NCBI RefSeq assembly: GCF_020026305.1
Contig: NZ_CP075691.1
Coordinates: 1,736,001-1,800,000, forward strand
Source: Streptomyces sp. 135
Lineage (GTDB): Bacteria > Actinomycetota > Actinomycetes > Streptomycetales > Streptomycetaceae
Length of the DNA stretch: 64,000 nucleotides
Direction: 5' to 3'
Part shown: piece by piece, positions 34,394-52,152 of the stretch
How the letters are laid out: each line of letters begins with the position of its first letter
Numbering within the stretch: the first letter of the stretch is position 1
Position numbers and translations under genes: made by a program
The notes under the pieces: generated by a model
The model's database searches: none
The model's input: only the letters and a program-made list of their open reading frames with translations
Told to the model about the DNA's origin: nothing

Positions 34394-35755
34394 ATGATGA
34401 GCGGGGACCACGTGAGGGACGCGAGCCGAGCGGGCGAGGGCGACGCGCGCAAGACGGCCGAGCAGCTGACCTATCTCTCCGGCTTCGGCAACGAACACGG
34501 CTCGGAGGCGGTGCCCGGCGCGTTGCCCCACGGCCGCAACTCCCCGCAGCGCGCGCCCCTCGGCCTCTACGCCGAGCAGCTGAGCGGTTCGGCCTTCACC
34601 GAGCCCCGCGCGCACAACCGCCGCTCGTGGCTGTACCGCATCCGCCCCTCGGCCGCGCACCCCGAGTTCACCCGCGCGGGCAACGGCGCGATCCGCACGG
34701 CCCCCTTCACCGAGACGGTGCCCGACCCGAACCGGCTGCGCTGGAACCCGCTGCCGGCGCCAGCGCCCGGCACGGACTTCCTCGCGGGCCTGTGGACCCT
34801 CGGCGGCAACGGCGACGCGGCGCAGCGCACCGGCATGGGCATCCACCTCTACCACGCCAACTCCTCCATGACGGGCCGGGTGTTCAGCGACGCGGACGGC
34901 GAGCTGCTGATCGTGCCCGAGCACGGCGGGCTGCTGCTTCGCACCGAGTTCGGGCTGCTGCGCGCCGAGCCGGGTGAGGTCGCGCTGATCCCGCGCGGCG
35001 TCCGCTTCCGCGTGGAACTGCTCGACGAGAGCGCGCGCGGGTACGTCTGCGAGAACTACGGCGCCCCCTTCCAGCTCCCCGACCTCGGCCCGATCGGCGC
35101 CAACGGCCTGGCGAACGCACGGGACTTCAGGGCGCCCGTCGCCGCGTACGAGGATGTGGAGGGCCCGGTGGAGGTGGTGAACAAGTTCTGCGGCAACCTC
35201 TGGCGCGCGACCTACGGCCACTCCCCGCTCGACGTCGTCGCCTGGCACGGCAATCACGTCCCGTACGTCTATGACCTGCACCGCTTCAACGTCATCGGCT
35301 CGATCAGCTACGACCACCCGGACCCGTCGATCTTCACGGTGCTCACCTCGCCGTCCGACACCCCGGGCCTCGCGGGCGTCGACTTCGTCGTGTTCGCGCC
35401 GCGCTGGCTGGTGGGCGAGGACACCTTCCGGCCGCCGTACTTCCACCGGAACGTGATGAGCGAGTACATGGGGCTGATCGAAGGCGCGTACGACGCCAAG
35501 ACGGCCGGAGAAGGGGGCTTCGTACCGGGCGGCGGCTCGCTGCACAACATGATGTCCGCGCACGGCCCCGACCGCGAGACGTTCGAGAGGGCGTCGGCCG
35601 CCGAGCTGAAGCCGCAGAAGATCGACGACGGCCTCGCCTTCATGTTCGAGACCCGGTGGCCGGTGACGGCGACGGAGCAGGCGGCCACCGCGTCCCACCT
35701 TCAGCGCGGCTACGACGACGTATGGCAGGGTCTGGAGCGCCACTTCCGCAACTGA
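34394..35755 (+). CDS. hmgA: Homogentisate 1,2-dioxygenase
   Basis: A 453-residue Fe(II) dioxygenase that opens homogentisate to maleylacetoacetate in Tyr/Phe degradation. [18 protein letters not shown] (about 27-44), [15 protein letters not shown] sequence ([14 protein letters not shown]) and the metal-binding region [21 protein letters not shown] (quoted in part: [14 protein letters not shown]) are diagnostic. Length matches the family. ATG 34394 or 34397 follow CGAGGGAGCG. The rest of the pathway is not in the window. A GntR regulator follows after 27 bp and a TetR is divergent. Confidence 0.96.
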
Positions 35756-38127: not shown

Positions 38128-38401
38128 GTCACTCCCCACCCGTACGAGGGCACCCGGCCCAGGGCAGGTTAACCCTATCGCCCCGTCGTGACACACGTGT
38201 ATCCCGGTCGCAGGATTCACCACCCCCACAAGGGGGTTGACGACTACTCTCCGAATACGACCGATTCCAGGGCGAGTTGGACATACAGCTCGACCAGCCA
38301 GCGGTCCAGGGGTCCTTGCGTGGGCTATCTCACCTGTCGTCATCCACGCGGACGGTTGCTACTTTTGTGGAGAATCGCACCGCTGCGGATGGGGGCGCCC
38401 C

Positions 38402-40144
38402 GTGAGTCAGCCAGAGCGCGTGATCGCCGGGCGGTACCGCCTCCTGGCGCCGCTGGGCGAGGGCGGCATGGGCACCGTGTGGCGGGCCAGGGACGACGTG
38501 CTCGGGCGTGAGGTCGCCGTCAAGGAGGTGCGCGCGCCCGCCGGGCTCCCGGCGGACGACATCGACCGGCTGTACGCCCGCCTGGAGCGGGAGGCATGGG
38601 CCGCCGCCCGCATCCCCCACCGGAACGTGGTCACCGTCTACGACGTCGCGACGGAGGGGGGCCGCCCGTGGATCGTCATGGAGATCGTGCGGGGCCTCTC
38701 GCTCTCCGACGTGCTCGACGCGGAGGGCGTGCTGCCGCCGCGGCGCGCCGCCCGGATCGGCGCCGAGGTGCTCGCGGCCCTGCGCGCCGCCCATGACGCC
38801 GGGGTCCTGCACCGCGACGTGAAGCCCGGGAACGTACTGATCGCCAATGACGGCCGCGTGGTCCTCACGGACTTCGGCATCGCGACGGTCGAGGGCAGCT
38901 CCGCGCTGACGATGACCGGGGAGGTCGTCGGATCGCCCGAATTCCTGGCGCCGGAGCGGGCGTTGGGCCGCAGCCCAGGCCCCGCGTCCGATCTGTGGTC
39001 CCTCGGGGTGCTGCTCTACGCGGCCGTCGAGGGCAGTTCGCCGTTCCGCCAGGACACCCCGCTGAGCACGCTGCGCGCGGTCGTGGACGAGGAGCCGCCG
39101 CCCGCCCGCGCCGCGGGGCCGCTCGCCCCGGTCATCGAGGGGCTGCTGCGCAAGGACCCGGAGGAGCGGATGCCGGCCGCCGACGCCGAACGCGATCTGC
39201 GGCTCATCGTCTCGGGCGGCAGGCCACTCACCGAGACCCCGCTCCCGCACCAGCCGACCGTCACGGCCGAACGCGGACCGACGGGCCCCACTCCCCCCAC
39301 CCCCTTCCCCGCCGCCTCACCCCGGCCCGCGCCCGCCTCCACGGCTGCCGACACCGCGACGACCACGACCACCGGGCCGACGCCGCGCCGCCGCACGGCC
39401 GTCCTGATCGCCGGGCTCATCGCACTGGCGCTGGCCCTCGGCGGACTCGCGTACGCGCTGATCGGCCGCGACGGCGGCGGTGGCGGCAGTGGCAGCAGCA
39501 GTTCAGAAGGCGCCGGTGATGGCTCTTCGGACGGCAAGGGCGGCGAGGACGGCAAGGCAGGCGAGGGCGGTAAGGGAGGGGGCGGCAGCGCGTCGGAAGG
39601 CTCGGACGGCGGATCCGGCGGATCCGGCGGGTCCAGCGGGTCCAGCGGGTCCGGCGGGTCCGGCGGGGGCAAGACCGACGGCGGCGGAGGCGACGGCGGG
39701 AGCGGTAACGGTACGACCCCTCCGCCCGCCCAGACCGTCAAGGTGCACGTCTCCGGGGCCCACACCCAGTACGAGGGGCGATGTCCGCCGGCGGCCGGTC
39801 AGGCGCCGTCCTTCACGGCGGCGTTCACGGTGGGGCGGGTACCGGTCGAGGTCGAGTACCGCTGGGTCACGAAGACCGGGGAGCCGAGCGAGCCGGGGTG
39901 GAAGACGCTGTCCTTCCCCGCCGGGAGCGGCAGGACGAAGCAGGTGAGTCAGGTCGAGACGGCGTACGACCAGGACGGCGGGACGTATACGAACACGATC
40001 AGCGTGCAGGTGCGCGCTCCCGTGACCACCGCGTCCAACGCCGTGGCGTACTCGGTGACGTGCGAGCAGGAGACCCCGACGGGCGGGGGCTCCTACTCGC
40101 CGTACGCGTCGGTTCAGCCGGTGGGGGTCAGGCCGCCGAGGTGA
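38402..40144 (+). CDS. Transmembrane Ser/Thr protein kinase (PknB-type)
   Basis: A 580-residue Hanks-type kinase. Gly-loop GEGGMG (19-24), Lys41, HRDVKPGN with Asp139 (137-144) and DFG (157-159) are intact. A Pro/Ala/Thr-rich juxtamembrane segment (about 250-335), one membrane helix (about 339-362), a 90-residue Gly/Ser-rich stalk and an extracellular domain of about 130 residues with two cysteines (YEGRCPP; YSVTCEQ) follow. There are no PASTA repeats, so the ligand differs from PknB. GTG 38402 gives the canonical start just before the kinase fold. TACTTT at 38360-38365 is a candidate -10. Its 3' end overlaps the convergent lipase by 17 bp. Confidence 0.92.
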   Translation: MSQPERVIAGRYRLLAPLGEGGMGTVWRARDDVLGREVAVKEVRAPAGLPADDIDRLYARLEREAWAAARIPHRNVVTVYDVATEGGRPWIVMEIVRGLSLSDVLDAEGVLPPRRAARIGAEVLAALRAAHDAGVLHRDVKPGNVLIANDGRVVLTDFGIATVEGSSALTMTGEVVGSPEFLAPERALGRSPGPASDLWSLGVLLYAAVEGSSPFRQDTPLSTLRAVVDEEPPPARAAGPLAPVIEGLLRKDPEERMPAADAERDLRLIVSGGRPLTETPLPHQPTVTAERGPTGPTPPTPFPAASPRPAPASTAADTATTTTTGPTPRRRTAVLIAGLIALALALGGLAYALIGRDGGGGGSGSSSSEGAGDGSSDGKGGEDGKAGEGGKGGGGSASEGSDGGSGGSGGSSGSSGSGGSGGGKTDGGGGDGGSGNGTTPPPAQTVKVHVSGAHTQYEGRCPPAAGQAPSFTAAFTVGRVPVEVEYRWVTKTGEPSEPGWKTLSFPAGSGRTKQVSQVETAYDQDGGTYTNTISVQVRAPVTTASNAVAYSVTCEQETPTGGGSYSPYASVQPVGVRPPR

Positions 40145-40937
40145 ACACGGGGAGGTAGCCACCGGACTGTCCGGCGGCCGTGGGGTGGTAGGACTCGCCG
40201 ATGTTGAGCCAGTTCACGCTGTGCAGCCACGCGCTGCCGGAGCAGATCTCGTGGCCGGTGAAGGTGCGGGTGACGTCGCCGAAGGTGAAGCCGTGGTCGG
40301 CCGCGCGCTTGGCGGTGGCCGTGTTGAGGTAGTCGGCGGCGTCGTTGATGGCGGCCCGCTCGCGCTCGGAGAGGCCGGTCGTGCAGGAGCCGCTCAGCTT
40401 GTAGAAGCGGGGGTAGCCGAGCACCACCACGCGGGCGGCCGGAGCTTTCGCGCTGATCGCCGAGTAGACCTTGTCGAGGTTGCCGGGGAGTGTGGAGTCG
40501 ACGTACGCGCGCGCCTGGGCGATGCGGGACAGGCAACTGCTCTCGGACTGGAGCACACACGTCGTCATGACGTCGGCGAAGCCCGCGTCGTTGCCGCCGA
40601 CGGTGATCGAGACGAGGCCCGTGCCGGATCCGAGCGGGCCCAGCTGATTCGCCAGAACATCACCCGTACGGGCTCCCGAGCAGGCCGTGAAGTGGAAGCT
40701 GGAGGGTGAGTTCGATGCCGCCCAGAGTGCCGGGTAGGCGCGCTTGCTGCGCTTGCAGTCGCCGCTCGCGCTGTCGTAATTGCCGGCGCCGACGCCCGAG
40801 GAGTAGGAGTCGCCGAGCGCCACATAGCCGGTGGCTGCGGCGTTCTGGTCCGCTTGAGCCGCCGTGGCCCCGGTGAGGGCGAAGGCGGCGGCGAGGAGGA
40901 GCGAGGACGTATATGCCGTGATGCGGGACAATCTCAT
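40128..40937 (-). CDS. Secreted SGNH/GDSL-type lipase/esterase
   Basis: A 269-residue exported hydrolase of the Streptomyces GDSL lipase type. Signal peptide 1-29 (AAQA), block I GDSYSSGVG with Ser44, SGART (block II), GGNDAGF (block III) and the C-terminal SYHPTAAG carrying the catalytic His. Six cysteines in pairs (DCKRS/TACSG; TCVLQ/SSCLS; GSCTT/EICSG) would form three disulfides. AGGGAGGT precedes ATG 40937. It hydrolyses lipid or phospholipid esters outside the cell. Confidence 0.92.
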   Translation of the reverse strand: MRLSRITAYTSSLLLAAAFALTGATAAQADQNAAATGYVALGDSYSSGVGAGNYDSASGDCKRSKRAYPALWAASNSPSSFHFTACSGARTGDVLANQLGPLGSGTGLVSITVGGNDAGFADVMTTCVLQSESSCLSRIAQARAYVDSTLPGNLDKVYSAISAKAPAARVVVLGYPRFYKLSGSCTTGLSERERAAINDAADYLNTATAKRAADHGFTFGDVTRTFTGHEICSGSAWLHSVNWLNIGESYHPTAAGQSGGYLPVFTSAA

Positions 40938-41170: not shown

Positions 41171-41596
41171 ATGCAGACCATCGGGAGCAAGGCGCCGCCA
41201 TCGGACACGGGGCGGCGCACCGTGCGGGGCCGCGACAAGGATCTGCTGCCGCTGCTCGCGGGAGCGGCCGTCGCCGTGGGGGGCGTCGGCGCGACGCTCG
41301 CGCTCGTCGACCTGAGTTCGCCGCTGCGCGGCCCCTTCACCCTCTTCTTCCTCCTCGCCGCACCCTCGGCCGCGCTCGCCGCCGCGCTGCGGGCGCTCGC
41401 GCCCTTGGGCCGCGCCGTGGCCGCCGTGGCCGGCGCCGTCGCGGTCAACCTCCTCGTGGCGCAGGGCATGCTGGCGCTGCGCGTGTGGTCGGTGCGCGGC
41501 GGGGTCGTCACCGTCACCGTCCTCAGCGCTCTCGCTCTCCTGCTGACGGTGGCACGGCGCCTGCGCCGCCGTGCGGCGAGAAGGTGGACCACCTGA
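41171..41596 (+). CDS. Small polytopic membrane protein heading the polysaccharide cluster
   Basis: A 141-residue protein with about four hydrophobic helices (LLPLLAGAAVAVGGVGATLA; GPFTLFFLLAAPSAALAAAL; RAVAAVAGAVAVNLLVAQGM; VVTVTVLSALALLLTVA) and a basic C-terminus. No family recognised. ATG 41171 is chosen because the upstream extension is not membrane-protein-like; the ribosome binding site is weak. Its stop is 1 nt before the GTG of the next gene, so the two are coupled, which ties it to the glycan cluster. Confidence 0.65.
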   Translation: MQTIGSKAPPSDTGRRTVRGRDKDLLPLLAGAAVAVGGVGATLALVDLSSPLRGPFTLFFLLAAPSAALAAALRALAPLGRAVAAVAGAVAVNLLVAQGMLALRVWSVRGGVVTVTVLSALALLLTVARRLRRRAARRWTT

Positions 41597-41597
41597 C

Positions 41598-42734
41598 GTG
41601 AACATCACCGTGCACCGCCCCGGCGAACTCACCGCCGCCGACCGGGCGGCGTGGACCGCCCTTCAGTCCAAGGCGCACCTCGACGGCTCGCCTGAGCTCG
41701 CCAACCCCTTCCTCGCCCCGGAGTTCACCCTCGCCACGGCGCACGGCCGGCGCGGGGTGCGGATCGCCGTCGTACGCGAGGACGGCGAACCGGCGGCGTT
41801 CTTCCCCTTCCAGCGGTCCGTCACCGGTGTGGGCCGCGCCGTCGGCCTCGGCGTCTCCGACTGCCAGGGGCTGGTGCACCGCCCCGGTTTCCGCTGGGAC
41901 GCCCAGGAGCTGCTGCGGGCCTGCGGGCTCGTGCTGTGGGAGTTCGATCACCTGGTCGGCGGCCAGGGCCCGTTCGAGGCGGGTGCCGCCGGCAGCTTCC
42001 CCTCTCCCGTCATGGACGTCGACCGGGGCTACGAGGTCTATCTCGGCCAACTGCGCGCCAAGGCACCGAAGTTCACCCGGTCGACGCTGGCCAAGCAGCG
42101 CAGGCTCGGGCGCGACCACGGGGCGGTGCGCTACGTCCACGACGAGCGCGACCCCGGGGCCCTGGCCACCCTGATGGGCTGGAAGTCGGCGCAGTACCGC
42201 AGGACGGGGCGCAGCGACCGCTTCGCGCATCCCTGGATCACCGAGCTGGTGCGCCGGCTCTTCCACACCAGGACCGGCTCGTTCGCCGGGATCCTCTCGG
42301 TGCTCTACGTGGCCGACGTGCCGGTCGCCGCGCACTTCGGGCTGCGCAGCGAGCGGGTCCTCGCCTGCTGGTTCCCCGCGTACGACCCGGCGTTCGCGAA
42401 GTACTCGCCGGGCCTCGTCCTGCACCTGCGCATGGCCGAGGCTGCCGCCGCCGACGGGATCGCGTACCTCGATCTCGGCCGCGGCCAGAAGGACTACAAG
42501 GACTCCCTGAAGACACGCGAACTGGCCGTGTCGGAGGGGTGGGTGGCGCTGCGCCACCCGGTGGCTCTCGGGCACCGGGCGCGGCGCGCTCCGGTCCGGG
42601 CACTGCGGAACACCGTGCTGTCCAGGCCGGAATTCTTCGGACCTGCCGATAAATTACTCAAGCGGATGGGCCAAATCCGATCCCTTGGCAAGGAGTCGGG
42701 CAAGGAGACAAGCAGGCAGCCGGGCAAGGAATAG
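41598..42734 (+). CDS. FemAB/BioF2-type GNAT-fold transferase
   Basis: A 378-residue cytoplasmic protein with two GNAT-like halves. Residues 150-185 (YEVYLGQLRAKAPKFTRSTL) and 275-300 (HFGLRSERVLACWFPAYDP; YLDLGRGQKDYK) are characteristic of the CelD/BioF2 acetyltransferase group that accompanies exopolysaccharide genes. It probably acylates a sugar or lipid-linked intermediate. GTG 41598 is 1 nt after the previous stop. Codon 353 is TTA (42654-42656), the rare Leu codon that makes translation depend on bldA tRNA in Streptomyces. Confidence 0.8.
   Translation: MNITVHRPGELTAADRAAWTALQSKAHLDGSPELANPFLAPEFTLATAHGRRGVRIAVVREDGEPAAFFPFQRSVTGVGRAVGLGVSDCQGLVHRPGFRWDAQELLRACGLVLWEFDHLVGGQGPFEAGAAGSFPSPVMDVDRGYEVYLGQLRAKAPKFTRSTLAKQRRLGRDHGAVRYVHDERDPGALATLMGWKSAQYRRTGRSDRFAHPWITELVRRLFHTRTGSFAGILSVLYVADVPVAAHFGLRSERVLACWFPAYDPAFAKYSPGLVLHLRMAEAAAADGIAYLDLGRGQKDYKDSLKTRELAVSEGWVALRHPVALGHRARRAPVRALRNTVLSRPEFFGPADKLLKRMGQIRSLGKESGKETSRQPGKE
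42654..42656 (+). promoter_or_regulatory. In-frame TTA (bldA) codon
   Basis: TTA is codon 353 of the FemAB-like gene (ADK-L-LKRM). In Streptomyces such codons are read by the developmentally timed bldA tRNA and usually mark genes expressed during differentiation. Confidence 0.8.
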
Positions 42735-43093
42735 GGCAGTCCGAATGTGACCGCATAGATTGCTCAAATCATGTAAAACGCGAGGCAACGTTCCAGGTCT
42801 TGCCATACAGTCTCAATCATCAATACCGTCGTACATCCACCCGCAACGGTCCATCATGTAATGCGATCCAGGGGAGGGCTCAAGATCGCGATGGTACCGG
42901 CGCGGGGCGCGGTAGGGGGGTGCCGTGCCCGGTGATCGCTCTTCGGCCGGGTCACGTCCCGCGCGATGCCAGCTCACTCGGCATGCACGGAGATCTGTTT
43001 CGTCATGCTCGAGTGAGAACCCCCCTTTCGAACCGGATCAATTACCGGACCGCCCGGGGGCGGGTGGTCCACCGGACGAGAGGGACCACCGTC
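42735..43093. other. 359-bp gap with two hairpins before the glycosyltransferase operon
   Basis: No gene is visible. The first 100 bp are relatively AT-rich. CTCACTCGGCATG (42973-42985) is complementary to CATGCTCGAGTGAG (43004-43017), apart from one bulge, and GGACCGCCCG (43047-43056) pairs with CGGGTGGTCC (43061-43070), 14 nt before the ribosome binding site of the next gene. A promoter and a structured leader or attenuator are the likely contents. Confidence 0.5.
42973..43070 (+). promoter_or_regulatory. Structured 5' leader (two stem-loops)
   Basis: The 13-bp stem 42973-42985/43004-43017 with an 18-nt loop, followed by the 10-bp GC stem 43047-43056/43061-43070 with a GGGG loop, lies directly before the GT2 gene. 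No known riboswitch class is recognised. Confidence 0.4.
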
Positions 43094-43927
43094 ATGACTT
43101 CTTCTGTGCGCCCGGCGGACGCCGGCCAGGACCCGCTGGAAGAGATCTCCAGGAACTATCGCCCGATCTCCACGCACTTGGCGATCACGCCGCCGGTGAG
43201 TGTGGTGATACCCGCGATGAACGAAGCGGAGAATCTTCCCTACGTATTCAAGACATTGCCCGACTGGATCCATGAGGTGGTCCTCGTGGACGGCAACTCC
43301 ACCGATGACACGGTGGCCGTCGCCCGCGAGCTGTGGCCGGACGTGAAGGTGGTGCGCCAGCTCGGCAAGGGCAAGGGCGACGCCCTGATCACCGGCTTCG
43401 CCGCGTGCACGGGCGACATCATCGTGATGGTCGACGCCGACGGCTCCGCCGACGGCCAGGAGATCGTCTCGTACGTCTCCGCCCTCGTCTCGGGCGCGGA
43501 CTTCGCCAAGGGCTCGCGGTTCGCCAACGGCGGCGGCACGGACGACATGACGCCGATCCGCAAGGTCGGCAACCACGTCCTGTGCTCCGTGGTCAACGCC
43601 AAGTTCGGCGCGCGCTACACCGACCTGTGCTACGGCTACAACGCCTTCTGGCGGCACTGCCTCGACGAGATCGAGCTCGACTGCACCGGCTTCGAGGTCG
43701 AGACCCTGATGAACATCCGGGTCGTCAAGGCCGGGCTCAAGGTGCAGGAGATCCCGAGCCACGAGTACCTGCGGATACACGGCGCCAGCAACCTCAGAGC
43801 CGTCCGCGACGGCATCCGCGTACTGAAGGTGATCCTCACCGAGCGCTCCGGCCGCGGCAGACGCGGGGCGCGGCGCGCGGCGGCGCGGGGCCTTCCGTTC
43901 CGCAAGGGCCAGGGAGAGGTGTCTTGA
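43094..43927 (+). CDS. GT2 glycosyltransferase, polyprenyl-phosphate sugar synthase-like
   Basis: A 277-residue GT-A glycosyltransferase. SVVIPAMNEAENLP (36-49) binds the nucleotide sugar, VDADGSADG holds the DAD metal motif (114-116), and CYGYNAFWR is near the acceptor site. Without C-terminal membrane helices it resembles dolichol-phosphate-mannose synthase-type enzymes that load a sugar on a lipid carrier. ATG 43094 follows GAGAGGGA. It is the first gene after a structured leader and is coupled to the next glycosyltransferase. Confidence 0.9.
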   Translation: MTSSVRPADAGQDPLEEISRNYRPISTHLAITPPVSVVIPAMNEAENLPYVFKTLPDWIHEVVLVDGNSTDDTVAVARELWPDVKVVRQLGKGKGDALITGFAACTGDIIVMVDADGSADGQEIVSYVSALVSGADFAKGSRFANGGGTDDMTPIRKVGNHVLCSVVNAKFGARYTDLCYGYNAFWRHCLDEIELDCTGFEVETLMNIRVVKAGLKVQEIPSHEYLRIHGASNLRAVRDGIRVLKVILTERSGRGRRGARRAAARGLPFRKGQGEVS

Positions 43928-44952
43928 GCGCGGACATATCCGTCGTCGTCTGCGTGTACACCGAGGACCGCTGGGAGGACATCCTCGCGGCGGTCGCCTC
44001 GGTGCGCGCGCAGTCACTGACGGCCCGGGAGACCCTGCTCGTGGTCGATCACAACGCCTCGCTCCTGGACCGGCTGACCAGGCAGTACAAGGAAGCCGGG
44101 GAGAGCGGTGAGGTGCGGGTGCTCGCCAACGCGGGCCCCCGCGGCCTCTCGGCGGGGCGCAACACCGGCATCGCCGCCTCGCGCGGCTCCGTCATCGCCT
44201 TCCTCGACGACGACGCCGTGGCCGAGCGGGACTGGCTGCGCCACCTCGCCGAGGCGTTCGAGGACCCGCGGGTGTTCGCCGTCGGCGGGCGCACCCTGCC
44301 CCTGTGGGAGTCGGGACGGCGGCCCACCTGGTTCCCCGAGGAGTTCGACTGGGTCGTCGGCTGTACGTACCGGGGGCATCCCGAGGGCCGGGCGCGGGTG
44401 CGCAACGTCCTCGGGGGCAACGCCTCCTTCCGCCGCTCCGCCTTCGACGTGGCGGGCGGCTTCGCGACCGGCATCGGCAGGGACGGCGACCGACGGCCGC
44501 TGGGCTGCGAGGAGACGGAGTTCTGCATCCGCCTCACCCGCGCCCGGCCGGACGCCGTCCTGCTGACCGATGACCGGGCGGTGATCCACCACCGGGTGCC
44601 CGGGGCGCGGGAGCGGTTCCGCTACTTCCGTACGAGGGCGTACGCCGAGGGCCTCTCGAAGGCGCTGGTGTCCCGGAGCGTCGGCGCGGGCAAGGGGCTT
44701 GAGTCCGAGCGGCGCTACACCACGCGGGTACTGCCCGCCGGGGTCGGCCGCGGTCTGCGGGACGCCGTGCTCGGGCGGCCCGGCGGAGTGGGGCGCGCGG
44801 GTGCCATCGTGACGGGAGTGGCCGCCGCGGCCGGGGGGTACGTACTCGGCAGCGTCCGTGCGCGCAGGGGAGCCGCCGCGTTCCGCGTCGTGGAGATCGG
44901 CGGGGAGCCGGGCGGGGTACGGGGCACGGGCGGCGAGGGGGCTGCCGCATGA
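43924..44952 (+). CDS. GT2 glycosyltransferase (TTG start)
   Basis: A 342-residue GT-A enzyme. ISVVVCVYTEDRWEDILAAV starts the fold, DDD (95-97) is the metal motif, GGNASFRR and CEETEFCIRL lie in the acceptor half. The start is TTG 43924, overlapping the TGA of the previous gene (TTGA) with AGGGAGAGG upstream; the frame is open far upstream but that is shadow. The C-terminus has a short hydrophobic stretch (AIVTGVAAAAGGYVLGSV) that may attach it to the membrane. It should extend a lipid-linked glycan. Confidence 0.88.
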   Translation: MSADISVVVCVYTEDRWEDILAAVASVRAQSLTARETLLVVDHNASLLDRLTRQYKEAGESGEVRVLANAGPRGLSAGRNTGIAASRGSVIAFLDDDAVAERDWLRHLAEAFEDPRVFAVGGRTLPLWESGRRPTWFPEEFDWVVGCTYRGHPEGRARVRNVLGGNASFRRSAFDVAGGFATGIGRDGDRRPLGCEETEFCIRLTRARPDAVLLTDDRAVIHHRVPGARERFRYFRTRAYAEGLSKALVSRSVGAGKGLESERRYTTRVLPAGVGRGLRDAVLGRPGGVGRAGAIVTGVAAAAGGYVLGSVRARRGAAAFRVVEIGGEPGGVRGTGGEGAAA

Positions 44953-45752
44953 GCACGGGACCCGTGCCGATACTGATGTACCACTCGGTCGCGCGCCTGC
45001 CGAACGAGGCGACGCACGATCTGTCGGTGTCACCCGACGCGTTCGCACGCCAGATGGAGGTGCTCGGCGAGCGGGGCTTCACCCCGCTCACCACCGCCCA
45101 GCTGGCCGCCGCCTGGCGCTCGCCGGGCGCCCCGCTGCCGGACCGCCCCGTCCTGATCACCTTCGACGACGGCTATGAGGGCGTGCACCGCCACGCGCTG
45201 CCCGTGCTCGCCGAGCACGGCTTCGCCTCCACCCTGTTCGTCTCCACGGGCTGGCTGCGCGGGGAGCACGACACCGGGGGCGGCCTCGACCTGATGCTCG
45301 ACTGGGACCAGGTGCGCGAACTGGCCGCAGCGGGCACCGAGATCGGCGGGCACAGCCACACCCACCCCGAACTCGACCAGCTCCGCGACGAGGAGCTGTG
45401 GTCCGAGCTGTGCCGCTGCCGGGACATCGTGGCCGACGAGCTGGGCACCCGGCCCGCCTCCTTCGCCTACCCCTACGGCTACTCCAGCCGCCGGGTGCGC
45501 GCGCGGGTGCGAGAGGCGGGGTTCGCCCAGTCGCTCGCCGTCGGCAACTCCCTGGCCTGCCGCGCCCAGGGCCCCTACGCCCTGCGGCGGGTCACCGTGC
45601 GCCGCTCCACCGGGGCCGAGGAGTTCGAGCGCCTGGTGGAGGGGCGCGCCCTCGCCCGTACGTTCGCCGTGGACCACGCCCTGACCAAGGGGTACGCGCT
45701 GGTCCGCAGAGCCCGACAGGTCCGCCGGAAGGCCATCCGTTCCCGTGTCTGA
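44949..45752 (+). CDS. NodB-type polysaccharide deacetylase
   Basis: A 267-residue CE4 enzyme. PILMYHSV opens the domain, TFDDGY gives the catalytic/metal Asp73-Asp74, and HSHTH provides metal ligands His136 and His140; FAYPYGYSSR is motif 3. There is no signal peptide, so it acts in the cytoplasm or is membrane-associated, perhaps on lipid-linked N-acetylated sugars. ATG 44949 overlaps the previous stop (ATGA), and its own stop overlaps the next GTG, a continuous coupled operon. Confidence 0.9.
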   Translation: MSTGPVPILMYHSVARLPNEATHDLSVSPDAFARQMEVLGERGFTPLTTAQLAAAWRSPGAPLPDRPVLITFDDGYEGVHRHALPVLAEHGFASTLFVSTGWLRGEHDTGGGLDLMLDWDQVRELAAAGTEIGGHSHTHPELDQLRDEELWSELCRCRDIVADELGTRPASFAYPYGYSSRRVRARVREAGFAQSLAVGNSLACRAQGPYALRRVTVRRSTGAEEFERLVEGRALARTFAVDHALTKGYALVRRARQVRRKAIRSRV

Positions 45753-48700
45753 CACGACCACCGCCCGGGCCGGCACGTCCGGCGGGCCGCGCGGCATACG
45801 CCTGCCGGGGTCGGGCGGTGGCAGCCCGCTGTTCCGCAACGCCTACGCGCTGATGCTCAACACGGGCATCTCCGGAGTGCTCGGCGTCGGCTTCTGGCTG
45901 GCCGCCGCCCGCTACTACTCGGAGTCGGCGGTCGGCCAGGGCTCGGCGGCGATCGCGGCGATGAAGCTCCTCGCGGGGCTCACCGCCCTGACCCTGACCG
46001 GCGCGCTGGCGCGGTTCATCCCGGTCGCGGGCCGCGCCACGGGCCGCCTCATTTTCCGTACGTACGTGGCCAGTTCGGTGGCGGTGGCGCTCGCCGCGGT
46101 GGTCTTTCTGCTCACCCTCGACGTGTGGGGGCCCTCGTACCGCTTCCTGCACGGGCCCGTCCACGGCGTCGGGTTCGTCCTCGCCGTCGTGGCCTGGTCG
46201 GTGCTGACCCTCCAGGACGGCGTGCTGACCGGGCTGCGCAACGCGCTGTGGGTGCCCGTCGGCAACACCGTCTTCTCCGTGGCCAAGCTGGCGCTGCTCG
46301 TCGCGATGGCCGCGGCGATCCCGACCGCGGGCGTCTTCGTCTCCTGGGTCGCCTCCATCCTCGTATCGGTGATCCCGCTCGGCTGGCTGGTCTTCCGGCG
46401 TCTGGTGCCGCGCCATGTGAAGGCCACCGACGGCAGGGCGAGGCCGCCGACGCTGCGCGAGATCGGCCGTTTCCTGGCGGGCGACTACACCGGCTCGCTC
46501 TTCTCGCTGGCCGTGGTCTATCTCGTCCCGGTGATCGTCGCCTCGCAGGTCAGCTCGGTCGACAACGCGTACTTCTACATCACCACCACCATCGGCGGCA
46601 CCGTCAACCTCTTCGCCATCAACATGGGCGCCTCCCTGACCGTCGAGGGCGCGCACGACCCGGCGCTGCTCGCCGCCAACACCCGTGCGGCGCTGCGCCG
46701 GATGACCGTGATCATGCTGCCGGTCTGCGGCATCCTCTTCCTGGCCGCGCCGCTCGTGCTGCGCGTGTTCGGCCAGGGGTACGCGGACGCTGCCACTGGG
46801 CTGCTGCGCTGGTTCGCGGTGGGGGCGCTGCTGCGGGTGGTCATGGAGACGTACTTCGCGGTGCGGCGCGCCCAGAGCGAGACCTCCGGGATCGCCTGGC
46901 TCCAGGGGCTGCTGTGCGTGCTGGTCCTCGGCCTCACGCTGATCCTGCTGCCGCGGATGGGGCTGACCGGCGCGGGCATCGCGGAGATCGCCGGCCTGAC
47001 CGTGATCGTGGCGATCGCGGCGCCCAAGCTGTACCGCGTGGCGCGGGCGGCCCCCTCGGCCGGGCCGGCCGGTGGCGCGGCGGCCCCGGACGGGGACCTC
47101 GCCGACCTCGGCACGCCGGACGCGCCCGCCGCCCCGCCGGGAGGCAAGGAGCGGCACGGGCCCGCCTGGGCGTTGCGGGAGTCGCTGGACTCGGACACGC
47201 TTCAGCTCGCCGTACAGCTCGACTTCGAACATCAGGAACGCAGGCCGGACGTGCGGCCGGGCCCGCCCGTGGCGCAGACCGAGGGGGACGACATGGACCA
47301 CCGGCCCACATGGGCGCCGAGAACCCCGGTCACAGGGCCTTCCTCGCCTCCTCCGGAGCCGGCGGGGCCCGCGGAGCCTTCGCGGGAGGAGTCCGCCGCA
47401 CCGGGCGGCACCGAGGAGTTCACACCCGAGGAACCCGAGGCGTCCGCTCCCCCACGCGCCCGCCGGCTCCGCGTGCTGCTCGTGGCGCTGCTGCTCGCCG
47501 CCGCGCTCGCCCTGTACTGGCTGCCCGTCCTCGGCCTCGGCGAGGAGGACCTGGACGGCATGGGCGGGCTCGGCCTGATCTCCGTGCTGCCGGTGCCGAC
47601 GCTGGCCGGCGCCGCGCTCCTGGTCGTCGTGTTCGCCGTACTGCTGTGGATGGACCGGCCGCTCAAGGGCCTCCTGCTGGTGACGCTGCTCGCCACCGTC
47701 GTGTCGCTGCACGCGCTGCCCGCGGTCATCGAGGCCGAGCCGCGGTTCGCCACGGCCTGGCAGCACCTGGGCTTCCTGGAGTACATCGACCGGACGGGCA
47801 CCGCGGTGCCCGACCTGGACGCGCGCTGGAGCTGGCCCGGGTTCTTCGCCGCGGCCACGTTCGTCGCCGAGGCCTGCGGTGTCTCGGACATGACCGAGGT
47901 GATCCGCTGGTGGCCGACGGCCATGCAACTGCTCTACCTGGCGCCGATGTTCCTGCTCGTGCGCTCCGTGCGGGCGGCCTGGCGCGCCAAGTGGGCGGGC
48001 CTGTGGATCTTCGTGCTGAGTGGCTGGGTCGGCCAGGACTACTTCTCCCCGCAGGGCTTCACGTATCTGCTCTACATCGCCTTCGTCGCCGTACTCCTGG
48101 TGTGGTTCCGCGCCCCGCGCGTGCTGTGGGCCAAGCGGCGTCCCGGTGAGAGCGAGGTGGAGCCGACGGGCCGCCGGGAGCGCGCGGTGCTGCTCCTGAT
48201 CCTCGTCGGCCTCTTCGCGGCGACCGTGCCCGCGCACCAGCTGACGCCGTTCGTGATGCTCGGCGTCCTCACGGTGCTCGTCCTGGTCGGCCGCTCGGAG
48301 CTGCGCGGCCTGCCGACGCTCTTCACGGTGATGGTCCTCAGCTGGCTGGGCTTCCTCGCCGAGCCGTACTGGTCGGGGCATTTCGACGAACTGTTCGGCG
48401 GGGTCGGCGGCCTCGGCGGCAATGTGTCGTCCTCGGTCTCCGGACGCATCGAGGGCGGCAGTTCGACGCACCAACTGGTGCTGTACGTGCGTGTGGCGAT
48501 GGCCGGCGCCGTCCTGGCGTTCGCCTGCTGGGGCTGGTGGCGGCGGCGTTTTTGCCGGTACGGCGAGCGCTCGCTGCTCGTCCTCACCTTCGTGCCGTTC
48601 CTCGGTTTCGCCATGCAGTCGTACGGCGGTGAGATGGCCCTGCGGGTCTTCATGTTCGCGCTGCCGGGCGCGGCCCTGCTCGCCGGGCTCGCGCTGTTCC

Positions 48701-49470
48701 CGCGCGCGGGTGTCACCGCCGAGGAGCGGGACCGCGACCGGGTGAGCCTCGCCCCGCTTGCCGCGCTGATGGCCGGGCTCGTGCTGATGGGCGGCTTCCT
48801 CGTGGCGCGCTGGGGCAACGAACCCTTCGAGCGGATCCGGCCCGGCGAGGTCGCGGCGATGGAGTACGTGTACGCGCACGACGACCCGACGGTGCGGCTG
48901 CTCTGGATGAGCGACGACACCGTCGAGAACGTGACGCCGGCGCTGCCGTGGGGCGCCCGTGACATGGAGAAGATCAGTTACGTCCCCACACTCGCGCCCG
49001 CCGACCCGGCCCTTGTCTCCGGCCTGGTGAAGGCGCTCAGGGACGCGGGGCCCCACTCGTACCTGATGATCAACAGCAGCCAGTCGACCTCTCTCCAGCT
49101 GGACGCGGGCTACTCGCCGACGTGGGAGCAGCGGCTGCTGCGCCACCTCGACGACCGCCGGGAGCTGAAGAAGGTCTTCGCCAACGACGACGCGGCCCTC
49201 TACAGCCTGCGGGAGCAGCCGGACGGCAGGGTGCCCGAGGCCGACCCGGGGCCGGTGGGGCCGAAGGTGACGTGGACGCCGTGGTCGGTGGTGGGCGCGC
49301 TCGCCGCCGTCGCGCTGGTGCTGCTGCTCACCACGCGCGAGGTGGTACGGGTCGCGGCGGCGCCGGGCGTGCGGCAGCAGCGGTGGCTCCAGAGCAGCTT
49401 CTGGTTCTCGCTGCCGCTGCTCGCGGTGCTGCTGGCGTCGCTGATCCAGCGGTTCTTGACGATGGCGTGA
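45745..49470 (+). CDS. Flippase fused to polytopic membrane transferase-like module
   Basis: A 1241-residue membrane protein. Residues 30-440 form a Wzx/MATE-like flippase (about 12 helices: LMLNTGISGVLGVGFWLAAA, then YFYITTTIGGTVNLFAINMG). Residues 440-570 are a hydrophilic Pro/Ala/Glu-rich linker. Residues 570-1241 hold another 10 or more helices with large loops (GWVGQDYFSPQGFTYLLYI; ISYVPTLAPADP), resembling GT-C-type glycosyltransferases or glycan polymerases. GTG 45745 overlaps the deacetylase stop. It would export and possibly polymerise or modify the repeat unit. No frameshift or stop separates the halves. Confidence 0.85.
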   Translation: MSDTTTARAGTSGGPRGIRLPGSGGGSPLFRNAYALMLNTGISGVLGVGFWLAAARYYSESAVGQGSAAIAAMKLLAGLTALTLTGALARFIPVAGRATGRLIFRTYVASSVAVALAAVVFLLTLDVWGPSYRFLHGPVHGVGFVLAVVAWSVLTLQDGVLTGLRNALWVPVGNTVFSVAKLALLVAMAAAIPTAGVFVSWVASILVSVIPLGWLVFRRLVPRHVKATDGRARPPTLREIGRFLAGDYTGSLFSLAVVYLVPVIVASQVSSVDNAYFYITTTIGGTVNLFAINMGASLTVEGAHDPALLAANTRAALRRMTVIMLPVCGILFLAAPLVLRVFGQGYADAATGLLRWFAVGALLRVVMETYFAVRRAQSETSGIAWLQGLLCVLVLGLTLILLPRMGLTGAGIAEIAGLTVIVAIAAPKLYRVARAAPSAGPAGGAAAPDGDLADLGTPDAPAAPPGGKERHGPAWALRESLDSDTLQLAVQLDFEHQERRPDVRPGPPVAQTEGDDMDHRPTWAPRTPVTGPSSPPPEPAGPAEPSREESAAPGGTEEFTPEEPEASAPPRARRLRVLLVALLLAAALALYWLPVLGLGEEDLDGMGGLGLISVLPVPTLAGAALLVVVFAVLLWMDRPLKGLLLVTLLATVVSLHALPAVIEAEPRFATAWQHLGFLEYIDRTGTAVPDLDARWSWPGFFAAATFVAEACGVSDMTEVIRWWPTAMQLLYLAPMFLLVRSVRAAWRAKWAGLWIFVLSGWVGQDYFSPQGFTYLLYIAFVAVLLVWFRAPRVLWAKRRPGESEVEPTGRRERAVLLLILVGLFAATVPAHQLTPFVMLGVLTVLVLVGRSELRGLPTLFTVMVLSWLGFLAEPYWSGHFDELFGGVGGLGGNVSSSVSGRIEGGSSTHQLVLYVRVAMAGAVLAFACWGWWRRRFCRYGERSLLVLTFVPFLGFAMQSYGGEMALRVFMFALPGAALLAGLALFPRAGVTAEERDRDRVSLAPLAALMAGLVLMGGFLVARWGNEPFERIRPGEVAAMEYVYAHDDPTVRLLWMSDDTVENVTPALPWGARDMEKISYVPTLAPADPALVSGLVKALRDAGPHSYLMINSSQSTSLQLDAGYSPTWEQRLLRHLDDRRELKKVFANDDAALYSLREQPDGRVPEADPGPVGPKVTWTPWSVVGALAAVALVLLLTTREVVRVAAAPGVRQQRWLQSSFWFSLPLLAVLLASLIQRFLTMA

Positions 49471-49509
49471 GCGGGACTGACGGCGGGGGCGCGGGCAGGG
49501 GTGCGGGGC

Positions 49510-50931
49510 TCAGCGCTGGAGCCACTTCACCTCGTACCCCTCCATGTCGAACCGCTTGCCGTCGACCTCGGCACTGACGCGCCGGTCGAGGGTGTTGACG
49601 ACGAGCACCGCCTCGTCGTCGGCGAGCACGCGGACGTCCGGCCGGTCGTCGGCGGCGATCGTGACGTGCTCGAACTCCGTGCCGGGGCCGAACTCCGCGC
49701 CGAACCGCTCGATGAGCTCCAGCATGGGCAGCTCGCGGCCGCCGTCGGCGCGTTGGGTGGGCGTCCACAGGCAGCCCGCGCACTTGGCGCCCCGTTTCTG
49801 CGGGTTCCAGTAGAAGCCGCTGGTGGCGCCGCCGCGGGCCATCGCCATCAGGCCCGACGCCTGGACGGCGACGCGGTGCGCCTCGGACCAGTCGTCGCGG
49901 TCGTCCTGGCTGTCGCCCGGCTCCACGTAGTACTCGGCCCACCACAGGGGCAGGCCGCCGGTCCGCTCGCGCACCCACTCGCCGACGGCCGTCAGCTTGT
50001 CGGTGGCCTTGAACTCGTCGGGGAACATCTCGTCGTCGGCCGTGTAGCTGGCGCCGTCGACGACGACGAAGTCCGCGCCCGCCTTGTTCTTGTTCCAGTA
50101 CGTGAAGGCGTCCAGGACCCGCTGGTCCAGGCGGCCCCAAGGGCCCTTGACCTGTGAGGCGTTGGCGCTCTGGCGCGGGTGGACGCTGTCCATGACCAGG
50201 TAGGGGCCGCCGACCATGATGTCCTTGTCGACCTTCTTGAGCTCCTTGTGGACGAGGTTGTAGAGCTCGGTGTAGCCCTCGTGGTCCCAGCGGGCCTTCT
50301 CCTCGTTCCAGAAGCCCTTGAACTCGTTCCAGACGATGAAGTGGCGTACGTCGGGGTAGCGCCTGGCGATGGTCGCGGCGAGCTTCGCGAAGTCGTCGTA
50401 GTGCGCTCGGTCCGGGGCGGTCTCCAGGGCGCGCCGGCTCCAGTCGGTGTTGTCCGCGCCGGGCTCGCCGCCCTTCATCCAGTCGGGGGCGCAGCAGAGG
50501 GTGACCACGGGCGTGCCCTCGCTCGCCCGGACGAAGTCGATGCGCCGGTCCATCTCGGAGAAGTCGTAACGTCCCTTGACCGGCTCGGGGTTGCCCGCGC
50601 CCCAGCCCATGACGTGCTGGATCTGTGGGACGGGCCGCCGCTGCCCGGCGAGTTCGGCGCGGACGCGTTCGACCGCCGCAGGCTCGCCGTCGTCCGCGCT
50701 GTACTGGGTGTGGGTGAAGCCCCAGCCCACCTCCGGCGCGGCCGCGCCGGGCGGGACCGCGGGGGTGCCGTGCACCTTGTCGCCGTCGGGGGTGGTGCCC
50801 GCGGTGCTGCCTCCGTCGCCGGGCAGCGTGTTGACCAGGGTGACCGCCAGGGCCAGCGCGGTCAGCGCAACACCGAGCAGTGCGGTGAGCCGCCACCGCC
50901 GTGCCCCCGAGAACCCCCCATGACGTCCCAT
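49510..50931 (-). CDS. Secreted/anchored clan GH-A glycoside hydrolase
   Basis: A 473-residue exported enzyme. An N-terminal signal-anchor (about 14-34, LLGVALTALALAVTLVN) precedes a (beta/alpha)8 barrel: VGWGFTHTQYSADDG, HFIVWNEFKGFW with the acid/base Glu of the NE pair, and LPLWWAEYYVEPGD with the probable nucleophile Glu. The layout resembles GH39-type beta-xylosidases and related clan-A enzymes. It is convergent with the glycan operon and separated by 39 bp, so it may trim or release that polymer. TACACT 8 nt before ATG 50931 suggests a leaderless transcript. Confidence 0.85.
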   Translation of the reverse strand: MGRHGGFSGARRWRLTALLGVALTALALAVTLVNTLPGDGGSTAGTTPDGDKVHGTPAVPPGAAAPEVGWGFTHTQYSADDGEPAAVERVRAELAGQRRPVPQIQHVMGWGAGNPEPVKGRYDFSEMDRRIDFVRASEGTPVVTLCCAPDWMKGGEPGADNTDWSRRALETAPDRAHYDDFAKLAATIARRYPDVRHFIVWNEFKGFWNEEKARWDHEGYTELYNLVHKELKKVDKDIMVGGPYLVMDSVHPRQSANASQVKGPWGRLDQRVLDAFTYWNKNKAGADFVVVDGASYTADDEMFPDEFKATDKLTAVGEWVRERTGGLPLWWAEYYVEPGDSQDDRDDWSEAHRVAVQASGLMAMARGGATSGFYWNPQKRGAKCAGCLWTPTQRADGGRELPMLELIERFGAEFGPGTEFEHVTIAADDRPDVRVLADDEAVLVVNTLDRRVSAEVDGKRFDMEGYEVKWLQR

Positions 50932-51048: not shown

Positions 51049-52152
51049 ATGTCTGCGAACCCTCACGACGCCCTGCCGATCCGGCTCAACGTCGACGACA
51101 GCGACTCTCCGTCGGATGTCGTGGACGCGCTGTTCCTCGGCCGCTTCGCGACGGGCGAGCAGCCCTTCTCGCACAGCGCGAACATCGAGCGCGTCAAGTC
51201 CGGCGTGACGCTGCTCCCGCCCGGGGCGACGGTGCTGCGGGCGGCCCGCGACGACGACCGCAGCGCGACGCTCGCCGAGGGCGAGGGGTGGACGCTGCTG
51301 ATCTCCCGCTGGAACCGCGGCGCGGACGTCACGGTGACGGCGACCGGCGCCGAGCTGGCCGAGCGCGTCCTGAAGCAGGCCACGGAGGGCGCGCAGGACG
51401 AGCCCGAGCCCCAGCCGGAGAACGTGGCCATGGGGTTCTGGTACGTGTCTCCGCGGCGCGGCCCGCACCGCACCACCCGGCAGATCTCGGCCGGTACGTG
51501 GGAGGAGGTGCGGCCCAACTACACGGCGCCGGTCGCCGACGCCATGGACAAGCTGATGAAGACGACGCCGGAGGACATCTCCGGGCGCCTGCTGCTCCTG
51601 CACGGGCCGCCGGGCACGGGCAAGACGTCGGCGCTGCGGACGCTGGCCCGGTCGTGGCGCGACTGGTGCCAGGTGGACTGCGTCCTGGATCCGGAGCGGC
51701 TCTTCAGTGACGTCGGTTATCTGATGGACATCGCGATCGGTGAGGACGACGGCACGGCGAAGGGGCGCTGGCGGCTGCTGCTCCTGGAGGACTGCGACGA
51801 GCTGATCCGCGGCGAGGCGAAGCACACGGCGGGGCAGGCGCTGTCCCGTCTCCTCAACCTCACGGACGGACTGCTCGGCCAGGGCCGCAACGTCCTGGTG
51901 GGCGTCACGACCAACGAGGACCTGGAGCGCCTGCACCCGGCGGTCGTCCGCCCCGGCCGCTGCCTGGCCCGCATCGAGGTCGGCGCGCTGACCCGCCCCG
52001 AGGCGGTGGAGTGGCTCGGCACGGAGGAGGGCATCTCCCGCGACGGCGCCACCCTCGCCGAGCTCTTCGCCCTGCGGCGCGGTACGACGCCGACGTCGGT
52101 CCCGGACCAGCGGGAAGGGCGGGCGGGGGTGGACGCGGGGCTGTATCTGTGA
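51049..52152 (+). CDS. AAA-family ATPase (DUF5925-type)
   Basis: A 367-residue soluble ATPase. Residues 1-110 form an N-terminal domain of the DUF5925 kind (LFLGRFATGEQPFSHSANIE). The AAA core has Walker A GPPGTGKT (186-193), Walker B LLLLEDCDE (243-251), sensor 1 VGVTTNED and RPGRCLARIEV with the arginine-finger region. It resembles ATPases acting as protein remodellers. ATG 51049 has GATCAT 6 nt upstream, a possible leaderless promoter. No substrate or partner is apparent; the divergent hydrolase is the only neighbour on that side. Confidence 0.85.
   Translation: MSANPHDALPIRLNVDDSDSPSDVVDALFLGRFATGEQPFSHSANIERVKSGVTLLPPGATVLRAARDDDRSATLAEGEGWTLLISRWNRGADVTVTATGAELAERVLKQATEGAQDEPEPQPENVAMGFWYVSPRRGPHRTTRQISAGTWEEVRPNYTAPVADAMDKLMKTTPEDISGRLLLLHGPPGTGKTSALRTLARSWRDWCQVDCVLDPERLFSDVGYLMDIAIGEDDGTAKGRWRLLLLEDCDELIRGEAKHTAGQALSRLLNLTDGLLGQGRNVLVGVTTNEDLERLHPAVVRPGRCLARIEVGALTRPEAVEWLGTEEGISRDGATLAELFALRRGTTPTSVPDQREGRAGVDAGLYL

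Follow-up and report, generated by a model that had tools for sequence, protein, structure and literature searches.

The locus described here occupies positions 41171–50931 of a 64,000-nucleotide stretch (the window) of the Streptomyces sp. 135 genome, which is assembled as a single contig of 8.83 Mb, and we propose that it encodes a surface-glycan pathway. Families were assigned by a Pfam scan of eight proteins and by NCBIfam models with curated cut-offs. The forward strand begins with a small membrane protein of 141 amino acids (aa; 41171–41596), recognized from its open reading frame (ORF) and hydropathy, and a 378-aa GNAT/FemAB-like acyltransferase (41598–42734; Acetyltransf_6, PF13480, E = 1.9e-42). 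A 359-nucleotide (nt) gap between the flanking ORFs (42735–43093) precedes a four-gene core (43094–49470) consisting of two family 2 glycosyltransferases, GT2a (277 aa, 43094–43927) and GT2b (342 aa, 43924–44952), a 267-aa CE4 polysaccharide deacetylase (44949–45752; PF01522, E = 1.4e-28), and a 1241-aa fusion of a predicted flippase and a predicted GT-C glycosyltransferase (45745–49470). A GH39-like glycosidase (49510–50931; PF01229, 28.1 bits with a cut-off of 26) follows on the reverse strand. The ORFs and family matches thus bear out the gene content given in the initial annotation. Its description of almost complete translational coupling fits the core, where GT2a/GT2b and GT2b/CE4 overlap by 4 nt each and CE4/fusion by 8 nt, but not the first two genes, which are set apart by the gap; likewise, the glycosidase said to close the locus is present, but convergent with the operon. 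The coupled operon probably starts in the gap, where an Rfam search for a riboswitch gave no match.

Gene order was compared across 80 fetched Streptomyces loci, which are the best 80 of 429 matches to the fusion rather than a sample of all Streptomyces. In every locus that reaches far enough upstream (76/76), the order membrane protein, GT2a, GT2b, CE4, flippase, GT-C is kept on one strand, a constancy that exceeds chance. The 141-aa protein is found in 76 of the 80 loci, always at the same place in the order. Three loci from another family (L119–L121) carry the same cassette, but the flippase and GT-C are each encoded by a gene of their own, and these two genes overlap by 4 nt in L119; a profile including two of these loci has its best named matches in Planomonospora, Planobispora, and Streptosporangium. 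Among 20 loci with a more distant GT-C, 12 contain all four core genes at a threshold of 45 bits. The modules are also joined in other ways: the flippase–GT-C fusion recurs in L123 and L126, GT2b and GT-C form one open frame of 1151 aa in L129 (8645–12100), and flippase, GT2b, and GT-C share a single frame of 1311 aa in L138 (8510–12445). In L127 (8123–13180), two GT-C paralogues flank a small protein with four transmembrane segments (4-TM), and small 4-TM proteins adjoin GT-C in L125 and L126 as well.

The two GT2 enzymes most resemble archaeal enzymes of the Agl type. The top NCBIfam model for GT2a is AglJ, with 141.5 bits against a cut-off of 325, and that for GT2b is AglG, with 218.7 bits against 440, so both fall below equivalog level. 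When the whole genome is scored, GT2a ranks first for AglJ (140.6 bits, runner-up 72.7) and GT2b first for AglG (218.7 bits, runner-up 49.2). Among ten relatives from other loci, AglJ is the best model for 5/5 GT2a and AglG for 5/5 GT2b sequences. GT2a further matches the dolichol-phosphate-mannose synthase (DPMS) structure 5mlz in the PDB (E = 6.2e-20). A DxD-type motif in GT2a and a DDD motif in GT2b are each kept in 76/76 Streptomyces loci. Because none of these sequences reaches the curated cut-off, we claim kinship and a likely role rather than membership or sugar identity: GT2a is predicted to be an AglJ/DPMS-like synthase of a polyprenyl-monophosphate sugar and thus a candidate initiator, and GT2b is a predicted AglG-like transferase that adds the second sugar. 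The initial annotation noted the lack of a WecA/WbaP-type initiator, but GT2a could begin a chain on a monophosphate carrier. The 141-aa membrane protein, which matches no Pfam family, is a possible membrane partner of GT2a.

The deacetylase has the PF01522 domain of CE4 enzymes, and its three metal/catalytic motifs are present in 79/79 Streptomyces loci. It matches PgaB models as well as PgaB/BpsB relatives in the PDB. PgaB and IcaB are exported deacetylases, unlike this enzyme: counting from the start of each match, none of the 79 sequences has a 19-residue stretch above a hydropathy threshold of 1.6, and no export signal is seen. Deacetylation is therefore predicted to occur on the cytosolic side, ahead of flipping. 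The acyltransferase, on the other hand, was not found in 23 of 76 Streptomyces loci and is an accessory, variable part of the locus. Of the deacetylated, acylated glycan on a lipid carrier that was first suggested as the product, the deacetylated and lipid-linked part stands as a model, while acylation is weakened by an enzyme that is often missing and lies outside the coupled operon.

The fusion consists of an N-terminal domain (45745–47070), a linker between the two regions of homology (47071–47445), and a C-terminal domain (47446–49470). Pfam assigns it no family (a single sub-threshold match, 12 bits), and PDB sequence searches with the fusion and with the flippase profile returned no match; both domains were placed by fold. 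An AlphaFold2 (AF2) model of the N-terminal domain (predicted local distance difference test, pLDDT, 76.3; predicted template modeling score, pTM, 0.77) has WzxE (9g9n) as its best Foldseek match (E = 4.5e-7, TM-scores 0.68/0.72), followed by MATE and MurJ proteins. Among 14 aligned flippase members, Pfam detects PF01943 in two and MurJ in one, and no family in the window's own sequence. On the basis of its fold, we predict this domain to be a flippase of the Wzx/MOP (multidrug/oligosaccharidyl-lipid/polysaccharide) type. One relative matches PF16933 and another bears the name PelG; we make no claim of PelG membership, as the best fold match is WzxE.

The C-terminal half, left unidentified in the initial annotation, is the predicted GT-C glycosyltransferase that would complete the pathway, and it represents a family without a Pfam entry. 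A PDB sequence search with the GT-C profile gave one match at chance level (E = 0.24), and no STT3 Pfam match was found in the fusion or the GT-C family. The VIA/Foldseek matches of its AF2 model are nearest to STT3 and AglB, with the caveats that apply to helical folds, and the Z differences to ALG12 and ArnT (13.1 and 12.9) are small. In the numbering of the 674-residue domain, E396 and R400 are invariant (E396 in 13/13 aligned rows), and, counted by eye, 12 of 13 rows have an acid at residues 96–98 and 12 of 13 have D/E at 198. These acidic loop residues presumably compare with positions in PglB/STT3. The matched PDB families include Pmt, ALG, Emb, Aft, and DPY19, which we take to be GT-C enzymes. 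Several of these are named as such in a description of another GT-C system (PMC11127046). The model thus points to a GT-C-fold transferase as the likely identity of this domain.

The glutamates of the WNE and WWxE motifs of the glycosidase are invariant in 8/8 aligned rows, and its profile matches beta-xylosidases in the PDB as well as PslG. Its gene is convergent with the operon in all 77 loci whose contig extends to it, lying within 308 nt in 76 of them. The protein is probably secreted or membrane-anchored.

Co-occurrence was counted in two genome samples, one of 150 Streptomyces genomes (including that of the window) and one of 296 genomes from the class; all counts ignore shared ancestry. 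The GT-C family occurs in 76 of the 150 Streptomyces genomes, 54 with a match of at least 64% identity and 22 with a more distant match only. GT2a is present in 75 of the 76 GT-C-positive genomes and in none of the 74 GT-C-negative ones, which argues for one pathway. The sole exception, G380, has its GT-C only as two separate pieces. In G380, G407, and G426, GT-C matches are split into two or three pieces, possibly as decaying copies or assembly errors. Within the class sample, GT2a is found in 51 of 52 genomes with GT-C, within 20 kb of it in 42 of the 51, and also in 20 of 244 genomes without GT-C; outside Streptomyces, GT2a can therefore have other partners. Five of these 20 genomes were read, and all five have flippase or GT2b relatives nearby. 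With respect to mutual exclusion between close and distant GT-C, the counts are 4/54 versus 22/96 genomes (p = 0.023, uncorrected for phylogeny), from which we draw no claim.

The initial annotation held that scattering of these genes in other genomes would speak against a pathway and called for a synteny comparison in other streptomycetes. That comparison gives a mixed picture: the one-strand order described above is fixed in the 76 loci, but 22 of the 150 Streptomyces genomes have a distant GT-C only. In these, GT-C lies within 20 kb of GT2a in two, whereas in seven the two share a contig but are over 1.4 Mb apart; in the other 13, it is on a different contig, and the distance is unreadable. 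We read the GT2a sites of five Streptomyces genomes of this kind, four from the class sample (G133, G182, G216, and G261) and one that belongs to both samples (G123), and found a GDSL gene, GT2a, GT2b, and CE4 in this order in 5/5, with no match to the fusion, glycosidase, acyltransferase, or membrane protein in any of the five 19-kb stretches. Around the locus in the window, a Ser/Thr protein kinase gene (38237–40144, forward) lies on one flank, and on the other (~51049–52152, forward) is what we take, from reading by eye, to be an AAA ATPase gene. Genes were called at three reduced sites: L140 has both the kinase and the AAA ATPase, L139 the kinase, and L142 the AAA ATPase, so these represent the same genomic site. 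In G216, G182, and G261 (L131–L133, respectively), the distant GT-C sits with a flippase 54–57% identical to that of the window. Besides this divergent flippase and the GT-C (~33% identity), these second, unlinked loci hold an acyltransferase, a GT2, and a CE4-like gene, and L131 also carries a small 3-TM protein; the GT2a–GT2b–CE4 site of the same genomes is without the fusion. Upstream of the locus in the window is a GDSL esterase/lipase gene (40128–40937, reverse), which is seen in 76/80 Streptomyces loci; further out are a homogentisate 1,2-dioxygenase gene (34394–35755, forward) and then a GntR/UTRA regulator gene.

We favor a pathway, at a probability of roughly 0.6, in which polyprenyl monophosphate would carry a short chain begun by GT2a and lengthened by GT2b. 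CE4 would de-N-acetylate this chain in the cytosol, after which the flippase domain of the fusion would carry the lipid-linked chain out and the GT-C domain would transfer it to an extracellular acceptor. What the analysis shows directly is the gene order, the fusion, the AglJ/AglG-like scores, a CE4 that has no membrane segment, two structure models and the folds closest to them, and a nearly perfect co-occurrence of GT2a and GT-C in Streptomyces. What we infer is which carrier and sugars are used, in which order the steps run, where deacetylation takes place, that the flippase channels the chain to the transferase, and what the acceptor is. Two points make a polysaccharide the most likely acceptor: the glycosidase is co-conserved, and the Actinoplanes imp cluster, discussed below, is required for a normal sporangium matrix. 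The acceptor would then be an extracellular polysaccharide, either still growing or already present, that the convergent GH39-like enzyme could cleave.

The best-surviving alternative is a special case of this pathway with the growing chain as acceptor, namely Wzy-like polymerization, in which GT-C would link the repeat units after flipping and so build a free polysaccharide, extracellular or of the spore matrix, for the GH39-like enzyme to trim. We consider it possible but clearly less probable. The constant presence of the convergent glycosidase and PslG among its profile matches favor it, as does the imp cluster, described as pairing ImpC, ImpE, and ImpD with a neighboring glycosidase (PMC12691653, PMC13390465). 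That cluster, however, has three GT4 and one GT2 rather than an AglJ/AglG-like pair, as far as it is described, and ImpE is compared with the GT-C family by description. Pfam detects neither a WecA/WbaP-type phosphoglycosyltransferase nor a Wzz/Wzc co-polymerase among the eight proteins, and no Wzy family in these or in the GT-C family, although the GT-C domain itself could act as a polymerase. These absences agree with the earlier view that the locus falls outside the standard Wzy, ABC, and synthase pathways.

It is more doubtful that the locus encodes plain three-component decoration, where GT2a charges the lipid with one sugar, GT-C adds it to a wall polymer, and GT2b and CE4 act in another step. 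Known systems of this kind are outlined as a GT-A synthase and a GT-C that work with a GtrA, Wzx, or MATE flippase (PMC8035078, PMC11127046), and one locus, L123, has GT2a and the fusion with no CE4 found and only a 43-bit match for GT2b. Against this are the fusions of GT2b to GT-C in L129 and L138 and the persistence of GT2a, GT2b, and CE4 together at five sites without the fusion. Protein glycosylation, with GT-C as an oligosaccharyltransferase acting on secreted proteins in a bacterial counterpart of haloarchaeal AglJ–AglG–AglB, appears unlikely given the small Z differences noted above, the lack of an STT3 Pfam match, AglJ and AglG scores below cut-off, and a co-conserved glycosidase that suggests a cleavable glycan. 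Finally, a poly-N-acetylglucosamine (PNAG)-type exopolysaccharide locus (Ica/Pga, MatAB-like) is hardly credible despite the PgaB matches of CE4, as the two GT2 enzymes, with 30.8 and 23.8 bits, stay far below the cut-off for a processive PgaC/IcaA synthase (422.3 bits), and CE4 shows no export signal; on the Pfam and NCBIfam results, both this and a cellulose reading were rejected.

Returning to the pathway through GT2a, GT2b, CE4, flippase, and GT-C, its new elements are the Pfam-less GT-C family, the fusion of this family to a flippase, the combination of AglJ/AglG-like enzymes and a CE4 of cytosolic type, and the nearly perfect co-occurrence of GT2a and GT-C, whereas the logic of multi-component transmembrane glycosylation, including its Wzx and MATE flippase variants, is already known. 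We tentatively suggest a bacterial assembly route that belongs to none of the Wzy, ABC, and synthase types, in which an AglJ/AglG-type oligosaccharide on a monophosphate carrier would be deacetylated before export and, within a single protein, handed directly from the flippase to an oligosaccharyltransferase-like GT-C domain of a new family, to be polymerized or transferred en bloc to the surface acceptor. In full-text literature searches, with most subscription journals outside their reach, none of the listed titles and abstract openings described the locus. If the proposal is correct, about half of the sampled Streptomyces genomes would produce a surface glycan along a route that none of these listed papers was seen to describe, a GT-C family that has no relatives in Pfam or the PDB would gain a function, and bacteria would use the archaeal AglJ/AglG logic of building a chain on a monophosphate carrier. 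The natural flippase–transferase fusion would also allow one to test whether lipid-linked glycans are handed over directly, and species in which the modules are naturally split lend themselves to testing which partners cooperate.

Among known systems, the addition of galactosamine to arabinogalactan (PpgS/Rv3631) was considered as a mechanistic parallel only, and a Lactobacillus exopolysaccharide with GtrA/GtrB-like genes (PMC7117936) was set aside. The imp cluster of Actinoplanes missouriensis encodes the Wzx-type ImpC, the Alg6/Alg8-like ImpE (proposed as a Wzy), and the small membrane protein ImpD; its single mutants have misshapen sporangia, and the impD mutant is described as lacking matrix (PMC12691653, PMC13390465). 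Our locus shares with it a Wzx-type protein, an Alg6/Alg8-like enzyme, a small membrane protein, and an adjoining glycosidase, and an extracellular matrix polysaccharide would be a further likeness, whereas imp, compared by description, has three GT4, names no CE4 among its seven genes, and keeps flippase and GT-C-like protein separate. For S. pyogenes, a three-component type has been proposed in which the membrane protein, the Wzx flippase, and the GT-C are separate (PMC8035078); our locus resembles it in its predicted GT-A polyprenyl-phosphate-sugar synthase-like enzyme, predicted Wzx/MOP flippase, and predicted GT-C, and in a small membrane protein nearby. Unlike that type as described, the locus adds a second GT2 and a cytosolic-type CE4, joins flippase and GT-C in one protein, and has a GT-C without a Pfam family. 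The GT136 system likewise combines a lipid-phosphate-sugar synthase, a MATE/MOP flippase, and a new GT-C family, with a pentofuranose side chain derived from phosphoribose as its product (PMC11127046; the GT-C families are compared by description only). In Haloferax, a chain on dolichol phosphate receives its first four sugars from AglJ, AglG, AglI, and AglE (PMC3871713). The likeness to AglJ–AglG–AglB of Haloferax volcanii lies in adjacent enzymes that match the AglJ and AglG models and in a GT-C model nearest to STT3/AglB (PMC3871713, PMC9943897), while our locus differs in being bacterial, in its sub-cut-off scores and missing STT3 Pfam match, and in having CE4, the GH39-like enzyme, and a fused flippase. 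In kind, we would class the locus with multi-component transmembrane glycosylation, as a variant that handles an oligosaccharide and has its flippase and transferase merged.

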